From: a virus
Length of the DNA: 27,289 nt
IMG/VR virus record: IMGVR_UViG_3300013125_000037
Location: 1 to 27,289 of that record
Strand: one strand, 5' to 3'
The notes under the pieces are model-generated. The model saw only the letters and a list, made by a program, of their open reading frames with translations, made no database searches and had not been told where the DNA came from. Positions 3,129 to 19,827 of the stretch are shown piece by piece. Made by a program: the position numbers and the translations under genes. Position 1 is the first letter of the stretch. Each line of letters begins with the position of its first letter.

Positions 3129-4607
3129 ATGTACGACACGATGAGCACCTTCGGCTTCCAGCCCGGTGACGAAATCAGCGCCAAGGAGCTGATGGCGTTC
3201 AACGAGGCGATTCGCAAGTCGACCTACGCCGGCTACCAGACCCCTGCGGTCACGACCGGTGGTGACAATGGGCCGATGAGCCCTGGTATCCCGCAGTCGA
3301 TCGACGCGCAGATCGTGCCCCTGTCGTACGGCAAGGAGCAGCTCGTCTTCTTCCTCGAACTCGTCCAGAAGGACGTGACGCAGATGGTCCACGAGGCCGC
3401 GCGTCTGAAGAGGTACGGTCGCCGGTTGCCGAGCTTTGTCGGAGAGGGCCTGACGAACTCGGTCAACGTCGTCGAGATGGACCGCGTGAGCTTCAAGGTT
3501 CGGTTCATGAACGTGATGCGCGAGGTCTCGAACGCCCTCGCCGCCATCCGTCTCCTGGCCCCGAACGCCAGCGCCATCGCGGCGGACAACGACGCGGCGA
3601 CGCTCGAGCTGCTCTACGACGCGGAGAAGGCGGTACTCTTTGGAGACAACGCCATCGACCCGCTGAGTTTTGACGGCGTCATCACGCAGATCGAGCGCAT
3701 GGAGACCTTCGAGGGCCAGAAGAACTTCTCGAGCCTGAACGGCGCGACGCCCGACCCGGACATCTTCCGGGCCATCCTGACGAAGCTCTACATGCCCCCG
3801 TTCTACGGCTACACGAAGTGCATCTACGTCGCGCCCGACGTGCATGCCAAGTTCCATGAGATCGCGACCGCGTACCAGCGCGGCTCGAACCTCCTCACCG
3901 GCGCCCCGATCTTCTTCGGCGCGGCGGGCGAGATTCTCATCAGTTACCCGGGCGGCGCGCCGGTCCGTGTCAAGGCGGTTCCGTTCCTCTCGAACGCGGA
4001 AGACACCTGCGACGGCACGGGCACGGCGTTCGGAACGACCGTCGCGCAGCCGACGTGGAACGTGCCGCCGGCGTCCGTCGTTCTCGGTGGCGGCGAGACC
4101 TCGGGGTGGGCGGCGGCCAATGCGGGCGACTACAAGTACTACGTCATCGGCCAAACGAGCGGCGGCTTGTCTCAGGACTCGGCGCTCTCGGACGCAGTCA
4201 CCGTGGTGAAGAACCAGAAGGTGACGATGACCATCAACTCGACCAACGGGTGCGTGTACAAGGTCTACCGCTCGGCCAAGGGCGTGTTCACGGGCCAGTT
4301 CCAGTACGCTGGCTCGGTCCGTGCGACGGGCCCCACGGTCGTGTTCACGGACTTCAACCGGAGCTTCCTGAGCGCGACCCAGAACTCGATCAGGCCCGGC
4401 ACGACCAAGGTCCTGTTCTCGACGCTTGACCCGGAGCACTACTACTTCGGCAAGTTGCTCGACCTCTTCCGTATGGAGTTGCCGAGCCTGAACGTGACCC
4501 GCCGGTTCTCGACGAACCTGTGGGGCATGCCGGTGGTCAAGGCGCCGATGAAGCTCTGGGTTCTTCAGGACGTCGGCGGCGTCACACTCCCGAGCGGCTC
4601 GGTCTAG
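3129..4607 (+). CDS. Major capsid protein with Ig/Fn3-like insertion
   Basis: A 492-residue protein preceded by a very strong GGGGGAAAGGAAG ribosome binding site, consistent with high expression. The HK97-fold features seen are the N-terminal arm, a long alpha/beta core with LFGDNAIDPLSFDGVI around residues 173-188 (a capsid-typical segment), and a C-terminal part with RRFSTNLWGMPVVKAPMKLW. Between the core and the C-terminal strand, about residues 320-412, sits a segment with a different pattern: YKYYVIGQTSGGLSQDS, then CVYKVYRSAKG, then VVFTDFNR. This alternation of hydrophobic strands and the Y-KVYRS...FTDFN pattern resemble a fibronectin type III / Ig-like domain. Such insertions or fusions are known on other phage capsids and are usually surface exposed. 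It lies downstream of protease and scaffold, as expected. Confidence 0.85.
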   Translation: MYDTMSTFGFQPGDEISAKELMAFNEAIRKSTYAGYQTPAVTTGGDNGPMSPGIPQSIDAQIVPLSYGKEQLVFFLELVQKDVTQMVHEAARLKRYGRRLPSFVGEGLTNSVNVVEMDRVSFKVRFMNVMREVSNALAAIRLLAPNASAIAADNDAATLELLYDAEKAVLFGDNAIDPLSFDGVITQIERMETFEGQKNFSSLNGATPDPDIFRAILTKLYMPPFYGYTKCIYVAPDVHAKFHEIATAYQRGSNLLTGAPIFFGAAGEILISYPGGAPVRVKAVPFLSNAEDTCDGTGTAFGTTVAQPTWNVPPASVVLGGGETSGWAAANAGDYKYYVIGQTSGGLSQDSALSDAVTVVKNQKVTMTINSTNGCVYKVYRSAKGVFTGQFQYAGSVRATGPTVVFTDFNRSFLSATQNSIRPGTTKVLFSTLDPEHYYFGKLLDLFRMELPSLNVTRRFSTNLWGMPVVKAPMKLWVLQDVGGVTLPSGSV

Positions 4608-9198: not shown

Positions 9199-11541
9199 AT
9201 GCCGAGTTCCATTTACGTCAACGGTCAGCGGGTCTACGTGCCGGGTCTGTACGGCAAGATCAACGCTTCGGCGCTTGCGGCCACCGGTTTGACCGTGGGC
9301 GGAATCGCGGTCGTGGGGTCCTTCCCGACGCTCGAGCACGCGGTGCCGAAGGTCTTCCAGACCGCGCGCCAAGTCGCCTCATGGGACGGCAACGACAAGG
9401 TCATGGCGCGTATTGCGCAGATGGCGTTCCAGCCTTCGAGCGATGACCGGGCGCCCGGCGGCGCGAACCCGCTCATCCTCGTCAACGCCCAGGAAAACAC
9501 CCAGGCCTCGCGCACGCTCTACGATGCGACCGGTCTTGAGGCTCTCGTCATCAAGTCGAAGTATTGGGGTGTCAAAGGCAACCACGTCAACGTGCTGTCG
9601 GACACCAATACCCTGGACGCGACGCTTCAGGATTTCATCGTCAAGCTCGATGGGGAGACCGAGACCTTCAGTGCGCTCGGATCTGGGTCGATGATCTCGG
9701 CCGGGTACCAGTCACCCGTCGGGGATACCGCCCTATTGACCGATATGAAGCTGCAGGTCTCTCCACGCACGACGTTCGCGAAGTCCGGGACGCTCGCTGC
9801 GGGCGCGGCGACGATCGACATGTCGAAGGTCCTTCCGCTCAAGACGGGGACCATCACCGCGACGACAAGCGTGGACGCCACGCAACCTATCGAAGTCACG
9901 CTCAAGGGTTACGACGCTTACGGCAAGTACCAGCAGGAGACACTTCAATCGGTCGCTGTCGCAACACCGAAGTCGAGCGCGAAGAAGTGGTCATCTGTCT
10001 CGTCTGCAGACGTGGCTACCGCAGACAACGCGAGCACGGCTACCATTACGCTCTCCGGATCGTCCGCCCAGGCGCTTCGTATGGTGTGGGAGAAGACGAT
10101 CGCGTACGTCGGCGCCACCACGTCGTTCCTGCCGGTCTCTCCATGGTCGCCGTCCGACAACATGAAGCTCAACTCGGGGCACATCACGATCGCGTTGACG
10201 GTCGCGGCGTCCGTTGGCAAGACGATCTCGTTCGTCTTCACTGGACGAGACCACACGAATGCGATGATGACGGAGACGGTGGACTTCGCCAACGCTGACG
10301 GTACCACCCCGAAATCGACAACCACAAAGTGGTCGTCCCTGACGTCCGTCACCTACACCGGCGACTCGACCGCCAACACGTCGATCACAATCTCGGGCGA
10401 GAGCTTCTACATCGACTTCACGGCAACAAAGACACTCAAGCAAGTGGCGGACGAGATCAACGTCGTCTCGGCTCTTGGGTACTTTGCGACGGTCGACAAC
10501 GCGAAATCCGGAACGGTGCTCGCGCGTGAGTGCGACGAAGTGGCGCTCGGCACCACCTGCTTCACGTCAAGCGGCGCTTCGGTCCGCGCGGACCTGTGGG
10601 CCATCATCGACTTGCTGTCGGGCTCTGACTTCATCACGGTCTCTCGCGCCACGAACGCAGGAGCGCAGCCCGCCCCATACGGCGGTGGTGTGTTCTTGCT
10701 CGGCGGCACGGAGACCGTGGCGACGACGGACATGTACTCCGACGCGTTCGACTCGCTCCTGCCGCGCACCGACGTGCAGAAGGTCGTGGCCTTTGGCGAC
10801 GACTCGTTCGATGCGTCCGAGACGCTCACGCTCGCGATGAACACCAAGATGGTGGCCTTCATCCGGTCGGCAGCCATCTTCGGGCACGAGTGCGCGGGCT
10901 ACATCGCGTGGCCCTACCAGTCGAACAAGACCATCACCGACATCAAGGCCTTCATCAAGCAGGTGAACTCCCGATCGGTCTCGGTCGGCGCGCAGAAGCT
11001 CGTGTCGATCGACCCAGACGGCACGACCCAGACCCTCGAGTCGAAGTACCGTGCCCTCCAGATGGCCGCGATGAAGGTCGCGGTCGGTCTGTGCGAGCCC
11101 GTGACGGAGAAGCGTCCGACCGTGTCGGACGTCATTTCGGTCTGGACACCGTTCCTCGACGACAACGAGGTTATCCCGGCCGGTATCCAGGCGCTGACCT
11201 ACGAGGAAGGTTGGAAGGAGTTGCGCGGCATCACGTCGTACCTCACGGACGACAACCCTGTGCTCTCCGAGTCGTCCTCGGTCGAGTCCTGTGACACCAG
11301 CATCCGGATGCTGCGCGCAGATCTGAAGAGCCTCGTTGGCCAGAAGAACACCATCACAGCGACAAAGCTCGCGGAGTTGGTGACGACCTCGCTCAAGAAG
11401 CAGGTCAAGGCCGGAGTCATCAAGGACTGGCGCAACGTCTCGGTCGACGACGAAGGCGACGTGTACAACATCGTATACGAGTGCGCGCCCGTCGAGCCCT
11501 TCAACTTCGCGAACGTCGAGCTTCGTGCTATTCGGTTCTAG
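9199..11541 (+). CDS. Tail sheath protein (contractile tail), enlarged by a duplicated insertion
   Basis: A 780-residue protein with GGAGG 5' of its ATG. The N-terminus (YVPGLYGKINASALAATGL) and the C-terminal domain (LTYEEGWKELRGITSYL ... VKAGVIKDWRNVSVDDEGD ... PFNFANVELRAIRF) match the pattern of contractile tail sheath proteins, whose subunits stack around the tube and shorten on infection. The next gene is the tube protein, as expected. Typical phage sheaths range from about 390 to 700 residues. Here residues ~190-410 hold extra beta-rich sequence containing two similar units about 114 residues apart, marked by KSSAKKWSSVSS (from residue 258) and KSTTTKWSSLTS (from residue 372). Such additions usually sit on the outer surface of the sheath. 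Confidence 0.88.
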   Translation: MPSSIYVNGQRVYVPGLYGKINASALAATGLTVGGIAVVGSFPTLEHAVPKVFQTARQVASWDGNDKVMARIAQMAFQPSSDDRAPGGANPLILVNAQENTQASRTLYDATGLEALVIKSKYWGVKGNHVNVLSDTNTLDATLQDFIVKLDGETETFSALGSGSMISAGYQSPVGDTALLTDMKLQVSPRTTFAKSGTLAAGAATIDMSKVLPLKTGTITATTSVDATQPIEVTLKGYDAYGKYQQETLQSVAVATPKSSAKKWSSVSSADVATADNASTATITLSGSSAQALRMVWEKTIAYVGATTSFLPVSPWSPSDNMKLNSGHITIALTVAASVGKTISFVFTGRDHTNAMMTETVDFANADGTTPKSTTTKWSSLTSVTYTGDSTANTSITISGESFYIDFTATKTLKQVADEINVVSALGYFATVDNAKSGTVLARECDEVALGTTCFTSSGASVRADLWAIIDLLSGSDFITVSRATNAGAQPAPYGGGVFLLGGTETVATTDMYSDAFDSLLPRTDVQKVVAFGDDSFDASETLTLAMNTKMVAFIRSAAIFGHECAGYIAWPYQSNKTITDIKAFIKQVNSRSVSVGAQKLVSIDPDGTTQTLESKYRALQMAAMKVAVGLCEPVTEKRPTVSDVISVWTPFLDDNEVIPAGIQALTYEEGWKELRGITSYLTDDNPVLSESSSVESCDTSIRMLRADLKSLVGQKNTITATKLAELVTTSLKKQVKAGVIKDWRNVSVDDEGDVYNIVYECAPVEPFNFANVELRAIRF
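9826..10407 (+). repeat. Two-unit protein-level repeat inside the sheath gene
   Basis: Two diverged units of about 80-114 codons lie in tandem. The markers are TPKSSAKKWSSVSS with STATITLSG in the first, and TPKSTTTKWSSLTS with NTSITISG in the second. The KS..KWSS codons begin at 9970 and 10312, 342 bases apart. Each unit has alternating hydrophobic/polar residues as in a small beta-sandwich. DNA identity is modest, so the duplication is old. Confidence 0.65.
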
Positions 11542-11550
11542 GAGGTTCCC

Positions 11551-11994
11551 ATGGCTCTCAAGCGTGCGGCATCTGGCGCGAGGTACACACTCGAGATCGA
11601 CGGGCAGGAGGTCGGCTGGGCCGACTCCATCCGGTTCGCGACGGGCAAGACCTTGGCACGCGTTAAGGTGCTCGGCAACCTCCGGTCGGACGGCATCGAG
11701 GTCACGGACTTCTCGCCCGGTGGGACGATGGATGCGGTCTTCATTGCGGACACGTCGATCTTCAAGTACCTCGGCTCGGCCTCCGAACTTGGGTCGAACT
11801 TGCAGATCATCGAGTCGGCATCGAAGACCATCTACGTCAAGGACATCGTCACCGGCGCCTACGTCTGGGTGCTCGAGGACTGCAAGTTCGGGACGACGGG
11901 CTGGTCAGTCGCGCGCGACGGCGGCCTCGCCGCGCACTCGGTCGACTTCGAGTGTCTCGACGTGGTAGACAACACGACTGGCGCGTCGCTGTAG
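11551..11994 (+). CDS. Tail tube protein
   Basis: A 147-residue protein directly after the sheath gene, with AGGAGG and a 7-base spacer before the ATG; this high-quality site suits an abundant protein. The sequence is beta-rich with a short helix, and has the layout of a tube monomer: an N-terminal strand pair (RYTLEIDGQEVGWADSIRF), a middle with STSIFKYLGSASELGS-like turns, and a C-terminal strand set (VARDGGLAAHSVDFECLDV). In contractile-tailed phages these rings form the inner tube that is driven through the envelope when the sheath contracts. The order sheath then tube is nearly invariant and is the main support, along with length. Confidence 0.8.
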   Translation: MALKRAASGARYTLEIDGQEVGWADSIRFATGKTLARVKVLGNLRSDGIEVTDFSPGGTMDAVFIADTSIFKYLGSASELGSNLQIIESASKTIYVKDIVTGAYVWVLEDCKFGTTGWSVARDGGLAAHSVDFECLDVVDNTTGASL

Positions 11995-12706: not shown

Positions 12707-14718
12707 TGTCCAAAGACAACGACGTCAAAATCCGCTTAATGGTCGATGGTGTAGACCTGTCCCCGAAGGCGCTCAGGGACCTCGAGTCCATCAAGAAGCA
12801 AGCGGTTGCTAAGGCAACCGCTCAAGCGGACGCTGTGAGACAGAGAAACAGGGATCGCGAATTGAGTGGTCCGCGGTCGATGTCGATTTCGCAGTACCCC
12901 AAGCCGAACTCAGATGATGCTGACAGGTTCTTTCTTCGTAAGCGTGCGCAAAGGGAACAGCGCGAGATTCGTGATAAGCAGCGCGAGGATCAGGCGACGC
13001 ATCGGTCCATAATGTCTGAAAAAAAGGCATTGGACTCGGAGCAGCGACGTGCGGACAACGCTAGAGCGAGGCTCCATACCAGTTCGATGTCTGGTATCGA
13101 GAAGACGTTCGCGCAGATGCAGCGGAGCGCTCGCGCGGAAAACCGTCGAGAAGTTGGGGCATTTGGCGGTCGCGTAACCGCAGCCGCGTCAAGGCTCGCA
13201 TCAATCAAGAGCGGGTCCGATGCCCTGTTCGCGAAGATGCAGCGCTTCAAGACGGAGTCGTCGGCCTCGGTTGATGCGTGGAATCCGCAGAACGACGCTA
13301 TGTACCAAGCGATGTTGGCGAACGAGAAGGCGCGGAAAGGTCCGTCGGGAGGAGGCAGTGGCGGAGGTGGGCGTGTTCGAGTTGGCGGTGGAGGAGGTGG
13401 TCGAGGCCACTTCGGCGAACTTATCGGCGCCGGCTTCTTGACCCATGGCTCAGCCCAGGCCCTTGGTCAAATCATCGGCGGGACCACGCTCGGCACCCCA
13501 TTCAACGTCGCCGGCAATATGCTCACAACGGCGTCACACGCGATGTTGTCGACGCGTATGATGTCGTCGCTTATGAGGAGGGGTCCGAGTGGTGGGCAGA
13601 TTGCGGCAAATGCTGCAGGTGGTGCGGTTATGGGCGCAACGACTGGCGCTATGATGGGTGGCGGCTTGTGGGGCGCTGTGGGGCTTGGTCTTCTTGGCGC
13701 AGCATCTTCCGCTGCAGGTGGAATGCTTGAGTCGCGCGCGGGCACTCGTGACGCGGCCGTCGCGATCCAACAGAACTACGCGTTGGCTCGAAGTATTGGA
13801 AACGGGAACCTCCCAGGAATTGGAGGCCTGAATCGAGGTAAGGCGTTTGCTGAGCTGGGCTGGGGGCCTGAGCAAGCGTCAGCCTTTACCGTGCAGTCTG
13901 CCCGATTGGGTGGGGCAAACGCGTCCTTCGAAGCCCTGTGGCGCGAAGCCCTAATGGAAGCGTCTGGCGTAGGTATCGGTGGTGCGCAACGTGCCCGTGG
14001 GATGGGGTACTATGCACAAGGCGGCAGGTCTGGCGCCAATGCCCTCTCGTCCTGGTCAATCCAGAGTGCAGTGGGCCAAGGTCTCAAGGGAGATGCGGCG
14101 ACCCAGTACCTATCTGACATCGCCGAGAACATCTCCTCCATCGTCAGAGGTGGTCTTCAGCCGAACATGGGTGCTACCCAATCCTTCCTGGCCATGGCTT
14201 CGGCGATGGGCGGGCCGCTTGCCGGGTCGATGGGTGTTGGCGCCATGAGCGCCATGCAGTCAGGGTCCTTGGCGTACGCAGGTGGGTTCAGGGGGCAGTT
14301 CTCGGGGATTGCTGACGCTCTCGACTTGGCCGCCGCGGCTCGTGGTGGAGGAAGCATCACCGATATCCTCGAGAGACTCGAGTCTCGCGCCGCCACGCCC
14401 GGCACTACGTTGGCCGAGTACAAGTCTGTGGGTGGTGTAGCTGGGGAGCTTGCGACCATCGCTAGGTCTCAGTCCGTGGCGCAAGGGCGTTCCCTGTGGG
14501 AGTATCAACCTGGAGTAGACTGGTACACTACAGGAGAACCGGCCCCACTAATAAGTGAGGCAGCAAAAATCGCGGCAAGGAGTGATTTCTTCAAGGCCCA
14601 GACCGTGGTCGGTGAGAGCCAAGACAAGGTCCTGGAGATGGAACGCGCCGCTGGTATGTTCTGGCAGGCGGGCGTTCAGACACTCGAAGGCATATTGTCT
14701 AAGTGGTTCGGTAGATGA
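12706..14718 (+). CDS. Tape measure protein
   Basis: A 670-residue protein that begins at ATG 12706, overlapping the chaperone stop codon, with a G-run (12695-12701) as ribosome binding site; a GTG three bases earlier is the alternative start. The N-terminal ~200 residues are highly charged and coiled-coil-like. A glycine-rich linker follows at residues ~212-238. A long small-residue, hydrophobic segment (around residues 300-340, e.g. GAMMGGGLWGAVGLGLLGAA) is typical of tape measure proteins, which insert in the host inner membrane. There is no lytic domain. Tape measure length sets tail length at about 1.5 A per residue, so this predicts a tail of about 100 nm. Base composition is lower in G/C at third positions than neighbouring genes. 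Confidence 0.78.
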   Translation: MSKDNDVKIRLMVDGVDLSPKALRDLESIKKQAVAKATAQADAVRQRNRDRELSGPRSMSISQYPKPNSDDADRFFLRKRAQREQREIRDKQREDQATHRSIMSEKKALDSEQRRADNARARLHTSSMSGIEKTFAQMQRSARAENRREVGAFGGRVTAAASRLASIKSGSDALFAKMQRFKTESSASVDAWNPQNDAMYQAMLANEKARKGPSGGGSGGGGRVRVGGGGGGRGHFGELIGAGFLTHGSAQALGQIIGGTTLGTPFNVAGNMLTTASHAMLSTRMMSSLMRRGPSGGQIAANAAGGAVMGATTGAMMGGGLWGAVGLGLLGAASSAAGGMLESRAGTRDAAVAIQQNYALARSIGNGNLPGIGGLNRGKAFAELGWGPEQASAFTVQSARLGGANASFEALWREALMEASGVGIGGAQRARGMGYYAQGGRSGANALSSWSIQSAVGQGLKGDAATQYLSDIAENISSIVRGGLQPNMGATQSFLAMASAMGGPLAGSMGVGAMSAMQSGSLAYAGGFRGQFSGIADALDLAAAARGGGSITDILERLESRAATPGTTLAEYKSVGGVAGELATIARSQSVAQGRSLWEYQPGVDWYTTGEPAPLISEAAKIAARSDFFKAQTVVGESQDKVLEMERAAGMFWQAGVQTLEGILSKWFGR

Positions 14719-17195
14719 AAGCCCGCCACGCCCATAGCTTCCCACCAAAGCTCGCCCGTGCTGGGATGCCTCGCGTGGAGTTCCATGGCTTCACAAAGGC
14801 CGCGACGTCTGACCCGGTCGATGTGAACAAGACCGCGGGCCGATCGACCATCAACGGCTGGATGGACGTCACAAACTTCGTGCGCTCGGTCCGGTGGCGT
14901 CAGTCCGTCACGCGACCATGGGAATCCATCACCCTCCAGTTGGCCGTGCCTCGCCGGTACTGGTTCCAGTTCTTCCCGGGCCTCACCCAAGGCCTGCGTT
15001 CTCACGGCGCACCGGGCGAGTGCGACGATCCAAAAACCGCGTACCTGCGCCAGCCCACAGCCGGGTTCTGGGTCGTGGTGCGTATGCCTCGCGGTACCGC
15101 GTCAGATGCTGCGGGGGGCGCGGCCGAAGCGTGGGGACACGTCACGAGCCTTAGTTACGGCATCACGATGGGTCCCGACGGGATGCCTAACGAGATGACC
15201 GTGTCCATCCAGACAGAGTCTTGGCTCGAGATGCTTGGACGATCACGGCTCGCCCTCAAAATTGGGAGCGAGGGCTTCACGCTCCGCGGGTTCCTTGAGC
15301 CCCTCGGCAAATGGCTGCAGGACTGGACGGGCATCCTTCAGGGCGCGCTTAGCGAGAAGTACCCAGGCCGACTGCTCGCGAAGACCTTCAAGCGTTTGGC
15401 GCAGATCCAGGTGCCTGAAACGCTCGTCAAGAACCTGACCTTCGGCGGGGACCCGCGCGACGAAAACGCCGCCGGCGCCATCAAGATCATCGCGACCGAG
15501 TCCGACGCTGAGAAGTGGGCGCCGATACGCGCGCCACAGCAGTCTGAACCGCGCGGGTGGGATATTAACGTCGCGGGCTCCGCTCTTCCCAGGTGCTCCA
15601 TCCTCGAGTACCTGTACTCGATCGTTGGAGCCGACCCGAATATCGTCGAGTTCTTCCCGTCGCTTGAGTACCAGCCGGCCGTCGACCCATGCACCGAGGC
15701 TGGCGCGAAGCCTGCGGCGTGGCCCGACCCCATGATCCGGGCGCTCGGTGGCTCATGCCCCGTGCTCATCCACCGCATCAGGCCGTTCCTCGTCGACAAC
15801 ATCGATAGCGCCAACGCCACAATCGCACGCTCACACGGCAACACCGAGATCCCGTCCGCGGGCCTAGAGAAAACGGCCAGCGAGCAACTCGGGATCTACC
15901 AGAGTAGCGGCCCGTCGCGCAGGATTCGGCGCGCTCACGACAAGTCGAGGGACTGGTACACGGTGCGCGAGAACGAGGTCATCTCGCTCAACCCGACGTG
16001 GTCCGATCTAAACCGCGTCAACTACGTGACCTGCAAACCCGGATCGATGATGCTTCCGGCGTTGCAGATGGAAGGCGTTCTCGGCGTCCCAGTCGGCGCG
16101 CCAGCCGAGTGGCGGGCGCACGGTATGCGCCCATACGATGTCGACTGGCCCTGGTTTCCAGCGATCATCGAGAACAACGAAGACGAACTCGCAGACCTCA
16201 CGAAGGAAATTCTCTCCCTGTCCGAGCTCGGTTTTGCCCTGCTGGCCGGCCAGGAAGCGTACTCGACTGGTTCGATGCGCATGCGCTTTCGCCCCTGGAT
16301 GAAGGCCGGGCATTGGATGTTCGCGCACCTCGATCGACTTGACACAACGTCGTACAAGTCCGACGGGGTATCAAGCGGCGAGAACTGGCCGCGATTTGAC
16401 TGTTATATTGAAGCTATTACGCATGAAGTCTCTGTACTTTCGGTGCTTGGCGGGTTATTTCAGAACGATGACTCCGAGATTATCGCAACAACCACGGTCG
16501 AGTTCTCACGCGGCGCCTTCGACATGCCCGTATACCCGCGCGCCGCCGCGTGGAGAAACGAGGGGGAGATCCAAGGTGCGATCGACAAGGCGGCGAAGGC
16601 GTACAAGGAGACAGGGCAGGTTGGGGACGAAGAGGGTGGCGAAGAGGCTACTGGCAAGACCGCTGCGCTCAACGCCAAGTACGGGGATCCGCTCGGCGGG
16701 AAGCCTGCGGTCCACGGCGCAGGTGACCTCATCGAGCCGGACGCCGCGTGGTACGCGGCCAACATCATCACGAAGTCCTTCGACGTTTCCGGGAAGTCGT
16801 ACAAGATCACACTTCACAAGGACGTGATCGATGACTTCATCGCACGGTTCAAGCAGGCGTGCCTCGCTACAGGGTATAGACCCACGAGCATCGTCGGCTA
16901 TCGATCTCGGTACAAGCGGGTCGCTGGCGGTGGGTCGTCGTCCGAACTTTCGCTTCACACCTGGGGTGTAGCCGTCGACATTGACAGTTACCGCAACGGT
17001 CGCGCAAGCACGAAGGATGCAGCGCTCGCGAAGTCGTTCATGCACACTAAGTACAAGGACTTCCCGTCGTACTTCAAGGCGTCTCTGGGCGCCACGGGCG
17101 CTTGGTTCTGGGGAGGGGACTGGAACGATAAGACCTTGCCGGGCGGAGAGGTCAAATCCAACTGTGATCCCATGCACTTCCAAAAGAACCCGTGA
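14715..17195 (+). CDS. Baseplate hub protein fused to a C-terminal M15 zinc peptidase
   Basis: An 826-residue protein whose ATG overlaps the tape measure stop. Residues 1-~620 look like a hub: WMDVTNFVRSVRWRQSVTRP near the N-terminus is the start pattern of gp27/gpD-like hub proteins, followed by mixed alpha/beta sequence. After a Glu/Gly/Ala-rich linker near residues 635-655, the last ~150 residues show M15 (VanY / L-Ala-D-Glu peptidase) signatures: GYRPTSIVGYRSRYKR, then LSLHTWGVAVDID with zinc ligands H748 and D755, then WFWGGDW and DPMHFQ with H821. M15 enzymes cut peptidoglycan cross-link or stem peptides. Carried at the tail tip, it would open the wall locally during DNA entry, the job of the gp5 lysozyme in T4. 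The hub assignment is less certain than the peptidase. Confidence 0.78.
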   Translation: MKARHAHSFPPKLARAGMPRVEFHGFTKAATSDPVDVNKTAGRSTINGWMDVTNFVRSVRWRQSVTRPWESITLQLAVPRRYWFQFFPGLTQGLRSHGAPGECDDPKTAYLRQPTAGFWVVVRMPRGTASDAAGGAAEAWGHVTSLSYGITMGPDGMPNEMTVSIQTESWLEMLGRSRLALKIGSEGFTLRGFLEPLGKWLQDWTGILQGALSEKYPGRLLAKTFKRLAQIQVPETLVKNLTFGGDPRDENAAGAIKIIATESDAEKWAPIRAPQQSEPRGWDINVAGSALPRCSILEYLYSIVGADPNIVEFFPSLEYQPAVDPCTEAGAKPAAWPDPMIRALGGSCPVLIHRIRPFLVDNIDSANATIARSHGNTEIPSAGLEKTASEQLGIYQSSGPSRRIRRAHDKSRDWYTVRENEVISLNPTWSDLNRVNYVTCKPGSMMLPALQMEGVLGVPVGAPAEWRAHGMRPYDVDWPWFPAIIENNEDELADLTKEILSLSELGFALLAGQEAYSTGSMRMRFRPWMKAGHWMFAHLDRLDTTSYKSDGVSSGENWPRFDCYIEAITHEVSVLSVLGGLFQNDDSEIIATTTVEFSRGAFDMPVYPRAAAWRNEGEIQGAIDKAAKAYKETGQVGDEEGGEEATGKTAALNAKYGDPLGGKPAVHGAGDLIEPDAAWYAANIITKSFDVSGKSYKITLHKDVIDDFIARFKQACLATGYRPTSIVGYRSRYKRVAGGGSSSELSLHTWGVAVDIDSYRNGRASTKDAALAKSFMHTKYKDFPSYFKASLGATGAWFWGGDWNDKTLPGGEVKSNCDPMHFQKNP

Positions 17196-18006: not shown

Positions 18007-19827
18007 ATGGCCGACGTTAGGTGCAAGAAGAACCAGAAGCACGCGACCAAGAAGAAGGTCAAGCGCAAGACCGTCGCCCGCAAGCCCGCTCCGCCGAACA
18101 AGGACATGAGCGTCGACCGCGACTCAGTGCGCATCGACTACATCCTCGAGGTCTGGAAGGGCAACAAGGTCATCCGCGCCATCCCGCTACCCATGCAGCC
18201 CGCGAACTTCACACTTCGCCTGTTCCCAGCAACAGCCATCCGCATGACGCTCGGTATGGAGGCCATTCGAGACCCGGTATACTTCCGTCGGTGCGCGATT
18301 CATTGTTCGGGGCGCTCGGGCGTTCAGGCGCGCCTCGGGTATGGGGAGAAGGGTACAGCAGGGGCACTCGATTCGTTCGCCGGCCCGCGCCATGTCGAGA
18401 ACGTGGACGCATTTCTCAAGGAGTACCAAAAGGAAGTCACGGAGTCCGGTGCCCACCGTATGCCGTCCTTCGGATCTCGAGCGCCAGTAGAGAGCCGGCT
18501 TAGGCTCGCGCTCCTGGTCTTCGGGGATTTCCTTCCGGACACGCAACCATCCAACGAAGACCTCGCAGCGGGGGGTAGGGGCATCGAGGTCAATACAGGC
18601 CTCGGACATCACTGGTTCGTTGAGGTGCAGTCATGGATCTTCTCGAAGGACAGATCCTTCTCACCATACGAGTACCAGTGGTCGCTCGACCTCGCCGGAT
18701 ACCAGCCCGTAAAGCGTGACGCACAGCGCGGATGGGCCGAATTCTCGTTCAAACGCGTCGAGTCGGACGATGAGTGGTCTGGCCCCACCCAGGGCGCCAA
18801 GGACATCTTGGACCTCGACCCGAAACGCTGGCAACACTACGACACCTTGCTGCGCGACATCACCGCGGCCAAGGCTCCCATCACGCGCTACGCCGACGCC
18901 ATGTCGAAGGGCCTCATCACGATAGCGAAGCTCCCGGCGCAGGTCCTGGCCGAGATGGTCGCCACGTCGCGTCAGCTTTACGCCACCGTCCACAGGGCCT
19001 ACGTCGCGCTGAGGTACGACTTCGTCACGGGGACCGTGTCCCAGTCCGCCATGCTCGTCAACTCGCTCGTTGACCTGACGCAACTGCTCGGCATCACCCA
19101 CACATGGCACCTCGACTGCACGACACTGTTCGGCAACTCCCCTGCCGTCCCGATCGCACAAAAACCCCTCCTGTTGGCCGCGGCCGAATCGAGCGAGTGG
19201 GGTCAGGCATCAGGCGTACCGCTTACGCAAGCGCCAGAAGGCCAATCGCTCAGCGTCTACGTCGTCAAGCCCGGCGACTCGCTCCAGAGCATCGCACTGA
19301 CGCTGCTCGGCGACGCGAACCTGTGGACCCAGATCGCTGACCTCAACAACATGCCGGACGCCACGCACTTCCCCTCCGGTCAACCAATGATCCCCGGGTC
19401 AATGCTGACGGTGCCCCAGAGTTTCTATTCACCGGCCACTGATGGGTGGGGCTCAGACCTCCTGGTTGACGACGAGACGGGCGATCTTGTCGCAAGCAAG
19501 GGCTCGGTAGTCTATGACGATATCGTGCTTGTGAGAGGCCCCCAGAACCTCGAGCAGGCACTGCGCATAAGGGTGCGAACCATCGCTGGTGACGTGCCGC
19601 AGTTCCCGGACTTCGGACTCCCTTCCGTCATCGGAAAAGCCGTTAGGCAGGGCGCGATGGTCAAGACCGCGGACGACATCGTGGCGCAGGTCGAGCGCGA
19701 CGACCGCGTAGTCGGTGTCTCAAGCCTCGAAGTGTCCGATCTCGGTGACGCACTCGTCGCCGAGCTTGTCGTGCAGACCATCGCCGGGGACTCGGTAGGG
19801 GTAGCGGCTCCGCTCGGTACGGTGTAG
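18007..19827 (+). CDS. Baseplate protein combining a LysM domain and a gp25/XkdS-like wedge domain
   Basis: A 606-residue protein. The first ~32 residues are strongly basic (CKKNQKHATKKKVKRKTVAR) and may be a nucleic acid or membrane contact tail; a second start at 18106 (AAGGAC before ATG) would omit it. Residues ~45-270 resemble the N-terminal region of XkdP-type baseplate proteins (WFVEVQSWIFSKDRSFSPYEYQW). Residues ~415-468 form a LysM domain (YVVKPGDSLQSIALTLLGD ... PGSMLTVP). The C-terminal ~110 residues (VYDDIVLVRGPQNLEQALRI ... VVQTIAGD) match the gp25 / XkdS-type wedge pattern. In other phages these are separate genes, so this is a fused wedge component. It would lie in the baseplate between the hub and the J protein. 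Confidence 0.72.
   Translation: MADVRCKKNQKHATKKKVKRKTVARKPAPPNKDMSVDRDSVRIDYILEVWKGNKVIRAIPLPMQPANFTLRLFPATAIRMTLGMEAIRDPVYFRRCAIHCSGRSGVQARLGYGEKGTAGALDSFAGPRHVENVDAFLKEYQKEVTESGAHRMPSFGSRAPVESRLRLALLVFGDFLPDTQPSNEDLAAGGRGIEVNTGLGHHWFVEVQSWIFSKDRSFSPYEYQWSLDLAGYQPVKRDAQRGWAEFSFKRVESDDEWSGPTQGAKDILDLDPKRWQHYDTLLRDITAAKAPITRYADAMSKGLITIAKLPAQVLAEMVATSRQLYATVHRAYVALRYDFVTGTVSQSAMLVNSLVDLTQLLGITHTWHLDCTTLFGNSPAVPIAQKPLLLAAAESSEWGQASGVPLTQAPEGQSLSVYVVKPGDSLQSIALTLLGDANLWTQIADLNNMPDATHFPSGQPMIPGSMLTVPQSFYSPATDGWGSDLLVDDETGDLVASKGSVVYDDIVLVRGPQNLEQALRIRVRTIAGDVPQFPDFGLPSVIGKAVRQGAMVKTADDIVAQVERDDRVVGVSSLEVSDLGDALVAELVVQTIAGDSVGVAAPLGTV

Follow-up and report, generated by a model that had tools for sequence, protein, structure and literature searches.

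The sheath gene and its relation to known sheaths

The stretch of DNA analysed here, termed the window, is the 27,289-base virus record IMGVR_UViG_3300013125_000037. An intact open reading frame on its plus strand (9199..11541) encodes a protein of 780 residues, as stated in an original prediction made from the letters of the window. In a sequence family search the product matches the PHROG 279 tail sheath family (E 1.9e-22). An AlphaFold2 model of the whole protein matches the sheath of Staphylococcus phage 812 with Z 27.5 and an rmsd of 7.9 over 489 aligned residues, and the sheath fold is recognised in this match from the N- and C-terminal parts. The protein is a contractile phage tail sheath protein.

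The conserved sheath core is in two parts, and both align with all relatives. The N-terminal part spans about residues 1–97 (9199..9489, plus strand), with block-mean pLDDT of 73–95 from residue 31 on, and the C-terminal part spans about residues 405–780 (10411..11538, plus strand). The N-terminal part is followed by the base of an outer extension domain, which corresponds to the sheath beta-sandwich domain II (about residues 98–176; 9490..9726, plus strand). Pfam PF17481 (Phage_sheath_domII) matches weakly here, at residues 106–151, with an E of 0.093 that is under the curated cut-off. The base is well modelled in the full-length prediction (block-mean pLDDT 89–95 at residues 91–160 and 79 at residues 161–170), and it has a counterpart in relatives that carry none of the added units described below. 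A Flagellin_IN match at residues 396–435 (E 0.097) is weak and below the curated cut-off, and several tail tube families match the protein or its units weakly (E 0.006–0.016); these were given no weight.

Directly downstream, at 11551..11994 on the plus strand, lies a probable tail tube gene, whose product matches PF18906 (Phage_tube_2) with an E of 4.7e-5, slightly under the Pfam cut-off. The order of sheath gene and then tube gene is the same in Bordetella phage PHB04 and Pseudomonas phage Dolphis, and the Dolphis neighbour is annotated as the major tail protein. Sheaths of the PHB04/Dolphis type have a core homologous to that of the window protein (23–29% identity) and lie among genes in a similar order, but they are about 570 residues long and have no unit at the insertion site. 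The phage 812 sheath (PDB 9euf, 8r5g, 5li2) has the same arrangement of core and domain II as well. The phage 812 chain is modelled to about residue 570; two added units make the window protein some 210 residues longer.

The internal repeat

Two homologous units, each of about 114 residues, lie in tandem inside the sheath protein. Counted with its lead-in strand, unit 1 covers about residues 177–290 (9727..10068, plus strand) and unit 2 about residues 291–404 (10069..10410, plus strand). The original prediction had described a tandem pair of related beta domains at residues ~190–410, a claim that alignments and models now support. It had located the pair at 9826–10407 (residues 210–403), which takes in most of both units but misses the lead-in of the first, as this begins at about residue 177. 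The four short motifs it had quoted start at residues 258, 372, 279 and 393, and the spacing it gave for the two pairs, 114 residues, is exact (258/372 and 279/393).

Self-alignment, which had been proposed as a check, places the repeat score above background. Local alignment of one half of the region against the other gives a score of 90, compared with a mean of 36 (SD 6.3) and a maximum of 72 in 2000 composition shuffles. When the whole protein is compared with itself, the best score is again 90, against a maximum of 84 in 300 block-shuffled proteins. A blastp comparison of unit with unit shows 33% identity, with E values of 1e-4 and 4e-5 that refer to a small database made from the window. 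An independent test comes from a profile of 32 single-unit relatives that was made without the window protein. It matches the protein twice, at residues 162–288 (E 2.4e-11) and 320–409 (E 5.1e-11). The repeat in the sheath protein is therefore confirmed by shuffles, unit-against-unit comparison and an independent profile.

Protein identity between the units is about 29–37%, depending on the alignment, and at the DNA level no repeat between them rises above shuffles. Conservation across the units is highest at a W or F of the lead-in strand, the G in a G-x-D pattern, T-E-T, and a closing S-G.

Insertion site and predicted structure

By alignment, the insertion site of the units has the final strand of domain II on its N-terminal side and the segment FYIDFTATKTLKQVADEIN on its C-terminal side. 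This segment is the counterpart of the place where the return to the core begins in relatives without a unit.

The full-length AlphaFold2 model (mean pLDDT 71, pTM 0.61) resolves the core and domain II, and unit 2 less well, with block-mean pLDDT of 49–77 over residues 321–400. Unit 1 is poor in this model because all alignment rows fell on unit 2, which left unit 1 without depth. A second AlphaFold2 model was made of residues 88–412 with the rows on unit 1 (mean pLDDT 63, pTM 0.42). Here block-mean pLDDT is 62–90, mostly 72 or more, for unit 1 (residues 188–287), and 59–83, mostly 74–83, for unit 2 (residues 328–397). In the numbering of this second model, strands of unit 1 at 144–152, 157–164, 177–187 and 195–202 recur in unit 2 at 256–264, 269–276, 291–300 and 307–315, an offset of +112 to +114, although alignment depth was present only on unit 1. 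Structure prediction of the region, also proposed at the outset, thus gives a twofold all-beta repeat. Each unit is predicted to be a small all-beta sandwich. Confidence of the models is middling, and with pTM values of 0.61 and 0.42 they do not reliably show how the two units are placed with respect to each other.

Fold comparisons of the units return generic beta sandwiches and jelly rolls with Z up to 8.0, among them the phage cement protein KHP40 (Z 7.0) and spore pili. Foldseek also matches the units to XepA of PBSX, with low TM scores, and a profile search of solved structures gave chance-like matches only. On these models no specific fold family can be claimed for the units.

Relatives and copy number

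Matches to cultured phages are distant and confined to the C-terminal half of the protein; they are Bordetella phage PHB04 and Pseudomonas phages Dolphis, Jeremy and Touem01. Searches by tblastn of cultured phages with the repeat region, and with single units from two uncultivated relatives (L151 and L165), gave no match. Neither the sheath nor the major head protein matched viral contigs as a single-protein query, and alignments were needed; a scan of genome contigs found no relative. An alignment that included the cultured-phage sheaths retrieved 65 viral contigs, where sheaths are almost all about 570 residues long and the insertion site is empty. Closer relatives, with sheaths of 646–662 residues, were reached via the major head protein. 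Two further scans brought the total to 117 distinct complete relative sheaths.

With the narrower profile, one unit is detected in 39 of these 117 sheaths, two in none, and no unit in the remaining 78, where absence means none detected: the 841-residue L190/L226 fell under the cut-off of the count, yet shows one match by the wider profile. Most of the single-unit sequences went into building the profile and so match by construction. Seven relatives outside it still matched (L200, L205, L207, L212, L213, L221 and L224), and for three of these the match is weak (E 5e-6 to 7e-4). The two-unit arrangement is found only in the window protein, that is, in one metagenomic contig.

The single-unit sheaths of uncultivated phages (L073, L149, L151 and others; 646–676 residues) carry a homologous unit at a collinear site, with roughly 26–37% identity in aligned segments; they have one unit and the window protein has two. 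An unbroken alignment places their unit where unit 1 of the window protein lies. Many of them align twice to the window protein by blastp. In the case of L151, residues 1–287 align to window protein residues 1–290, and residues 227–654 to residues 343–780. Such an overlap is expected if one unit became two.

The sheath had been described as at the long end of its family. This holds among close kin (569–676 residues, and one of 841), but predicted viral proteins named sheaths reach 932–1117 residues. In the sheath of 841 residues (L190:6001–8523 and L191:6001–8523) a single unit occupies the usual site, and an insertion of another kind follows further on, around residues 420–520. These sheaths therefore take up added domains in more than one place.

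Comparison with multi-domain sheaths

Evseev et al. (2022; PMC9230969) describe type 3 sheaths, in which an N- plus C-terminal core is joined by several added domains, as in the window protein. By alignment and models the latter has at least three domains with extras between the core parts (core, domain II, unit 1 and unit 2), which is how type 3 is delimited there. The added domains of type 3 sheaths are often beta sandwiches or Ig-like and lie away from the tube, and extra beta-sandwich domains on sheath proteins are reported there as common. The original prediction called this a less described kind of elaboration, which is only partly right, as sandwich domains far from the tube, and longer sheaths, are already known. 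What looks new is the series of zero, one and two copies of one added domain at one site. As for duplication, the passages of PMC9230969 on which this comparison rests mention only that of whole sheath genes, and not tandem copies of one added domain inside a sheath, as seen in the window protein.

Origin of the second copy

Taken together, the evidence makes it very probable that this is a contractile sheath of the 812/PHB04 kind with an outer extension made longer by two peripheral beta sandwiches, homologous and in tandem. The simplest and most likely reading is that a single ancestral unit was duplicated within one gene and that this gave rise to the second copy. The low protein identity together with the lack of a DNA repeat indicates that the event is old and is not an assembly error.

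The mechanism of duplication named in the original prediction is plausible, but scores, tree and flank rankings do not separate it from recombination of two single-unit genes. The same protein would result if two different single-unit sheath genes had undergone unequal homologous recombination, a real though somewhat improbable alternative. Unit 1 is most like the unit of L156 (score 116) and that of L174, and unit 2 is most like that of L149 (score 118), whereas unit 1 against unit 2 scores only 91; each unit thus has a relative that it resembles more than it does its neighbour. The borders of the repeat also match those of the stretch that is covered twice in alignments with single-unit relatives. 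On the other hand, the flanks do not track the units, since L149 is also the nearest relative for the N-terminal part of the protein and L200 for the C-terminal part, and a ranking of the flanks for a mosaic origin shows no clear pattern. The divergence is high enough to blur similarity rankings. In the tree, the join of the two units has no SH-aLRT support (83/0) and the branches are long.

An error of metagenome assembly as the source of the second copy is hardly credible and was rejected. The two-unit form does come from one contig only, but with about 29–37% protein identity and no DNA-level similarity above shuffles the units are too divergent to be the same reads assembled twice. Nothing interrupts the reading frame, and the region keeps an even G+C content (0.58–0.62).

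Position on the tail and possible function

Both units are likely to be displayed outward, away from the tube, because they are nested in the outer extension and solved sheaths carry this extension on the outside. Domains III and IV, the outer sheath domains of phage 812, are flexible and sit on the exterior (PMC12886913), and in phage Milano residues 91–203 form an external extension domain (PMC10811340). The outward-facing position that had been proposed is made likely by this analogy. Because they follow the final strand of domain II and precede the return to the core, the units would be carried outward from the tube, and with a presumed six sheath copies per ring, twelve units would be displayed on each ring. 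The core that touches the tube and contracts is unchanged.

Our best guess is that the units are a peripheral, probably non-essential surface elaboration, which may serve in weak adhesion to cells or particles or in cementing side to side between sheath subunits. These are the two published ideas for added sheath domains (PMC9230969). In phage T4, the extra sheath domains are reportedly dispensable. The unit is not needed for contraction as such, since 78 relatives show none.

Perhaps the units cement adjacent sheath subunits and so stiffen or stabilise the extended tail, although this is unlikely. Domain II of phage 812 has been proposed to touch an adjacent subunit and to stabilise the disk (a proposal cited in PMC9230969), and KHP40, one of the fold matches noted above, is a cement protein. 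However, the outer component of phiKp24 takes no part in subunit contacts during assembly (PMC9700779), the relatives in which no unit is detected argue against such a role, and the fold matches are unspecific. The tail rigidity that had been put forward for the repeated domains gains no specific support from these generic sandwiches.

Binding of glycans or other cell-surface sugars along the full length of the tail, by way of the doubled domains, is still less probable. Ig-like domains of virions have been hypothesised to bind carbohydrates weakly (quoted in PMC9230969), and the probable outward display would suit such a role. But no carbohydrate-binding family is found among the Pfam or PHROG matches of 21 units, an absence that is no proof, and the best fold matches, cement protein and spore pili included, are generic. 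The sole glycan-binding structure matched is 7kwb, with a TM score of 0.18. The suggestion of glycan binding in the original prediction is thus left with no specific support.

A broader and very doubtful proposal is that sheath genes of this phage group gain and multiply one domain at one site, and that the doubled form makes a binding or cementing surface over the whole tail, its reach growing with copy number. Sheaths with none, one and two units at a single insertion site are in any case a natural series in a contractile sheath. They make the purpose of added sheath domains testable, by comparing or deleting copies with the contraction core untouched.

Other proteins encoded in the window

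A head protein (3129–4607) matches PHROG 752 (E 7.3e-36) and has only 23–26% identity to PHB04-type head proteins; its C-terminal half may include an added beta domain. An 826-residue protein of the tail region (14715–17195) has a terminal domain like that of D-alanyl-D-alanine carboxypeptidases (PF13539, E 2.2e-6) at its C-terminal end and is perhaps a tail-associated cell wall enzyme. A 606-residue protein (18007–19827) has a LysM domain and a baseplate-like C-terminal region (PHROG 975, E 2.3e-17).
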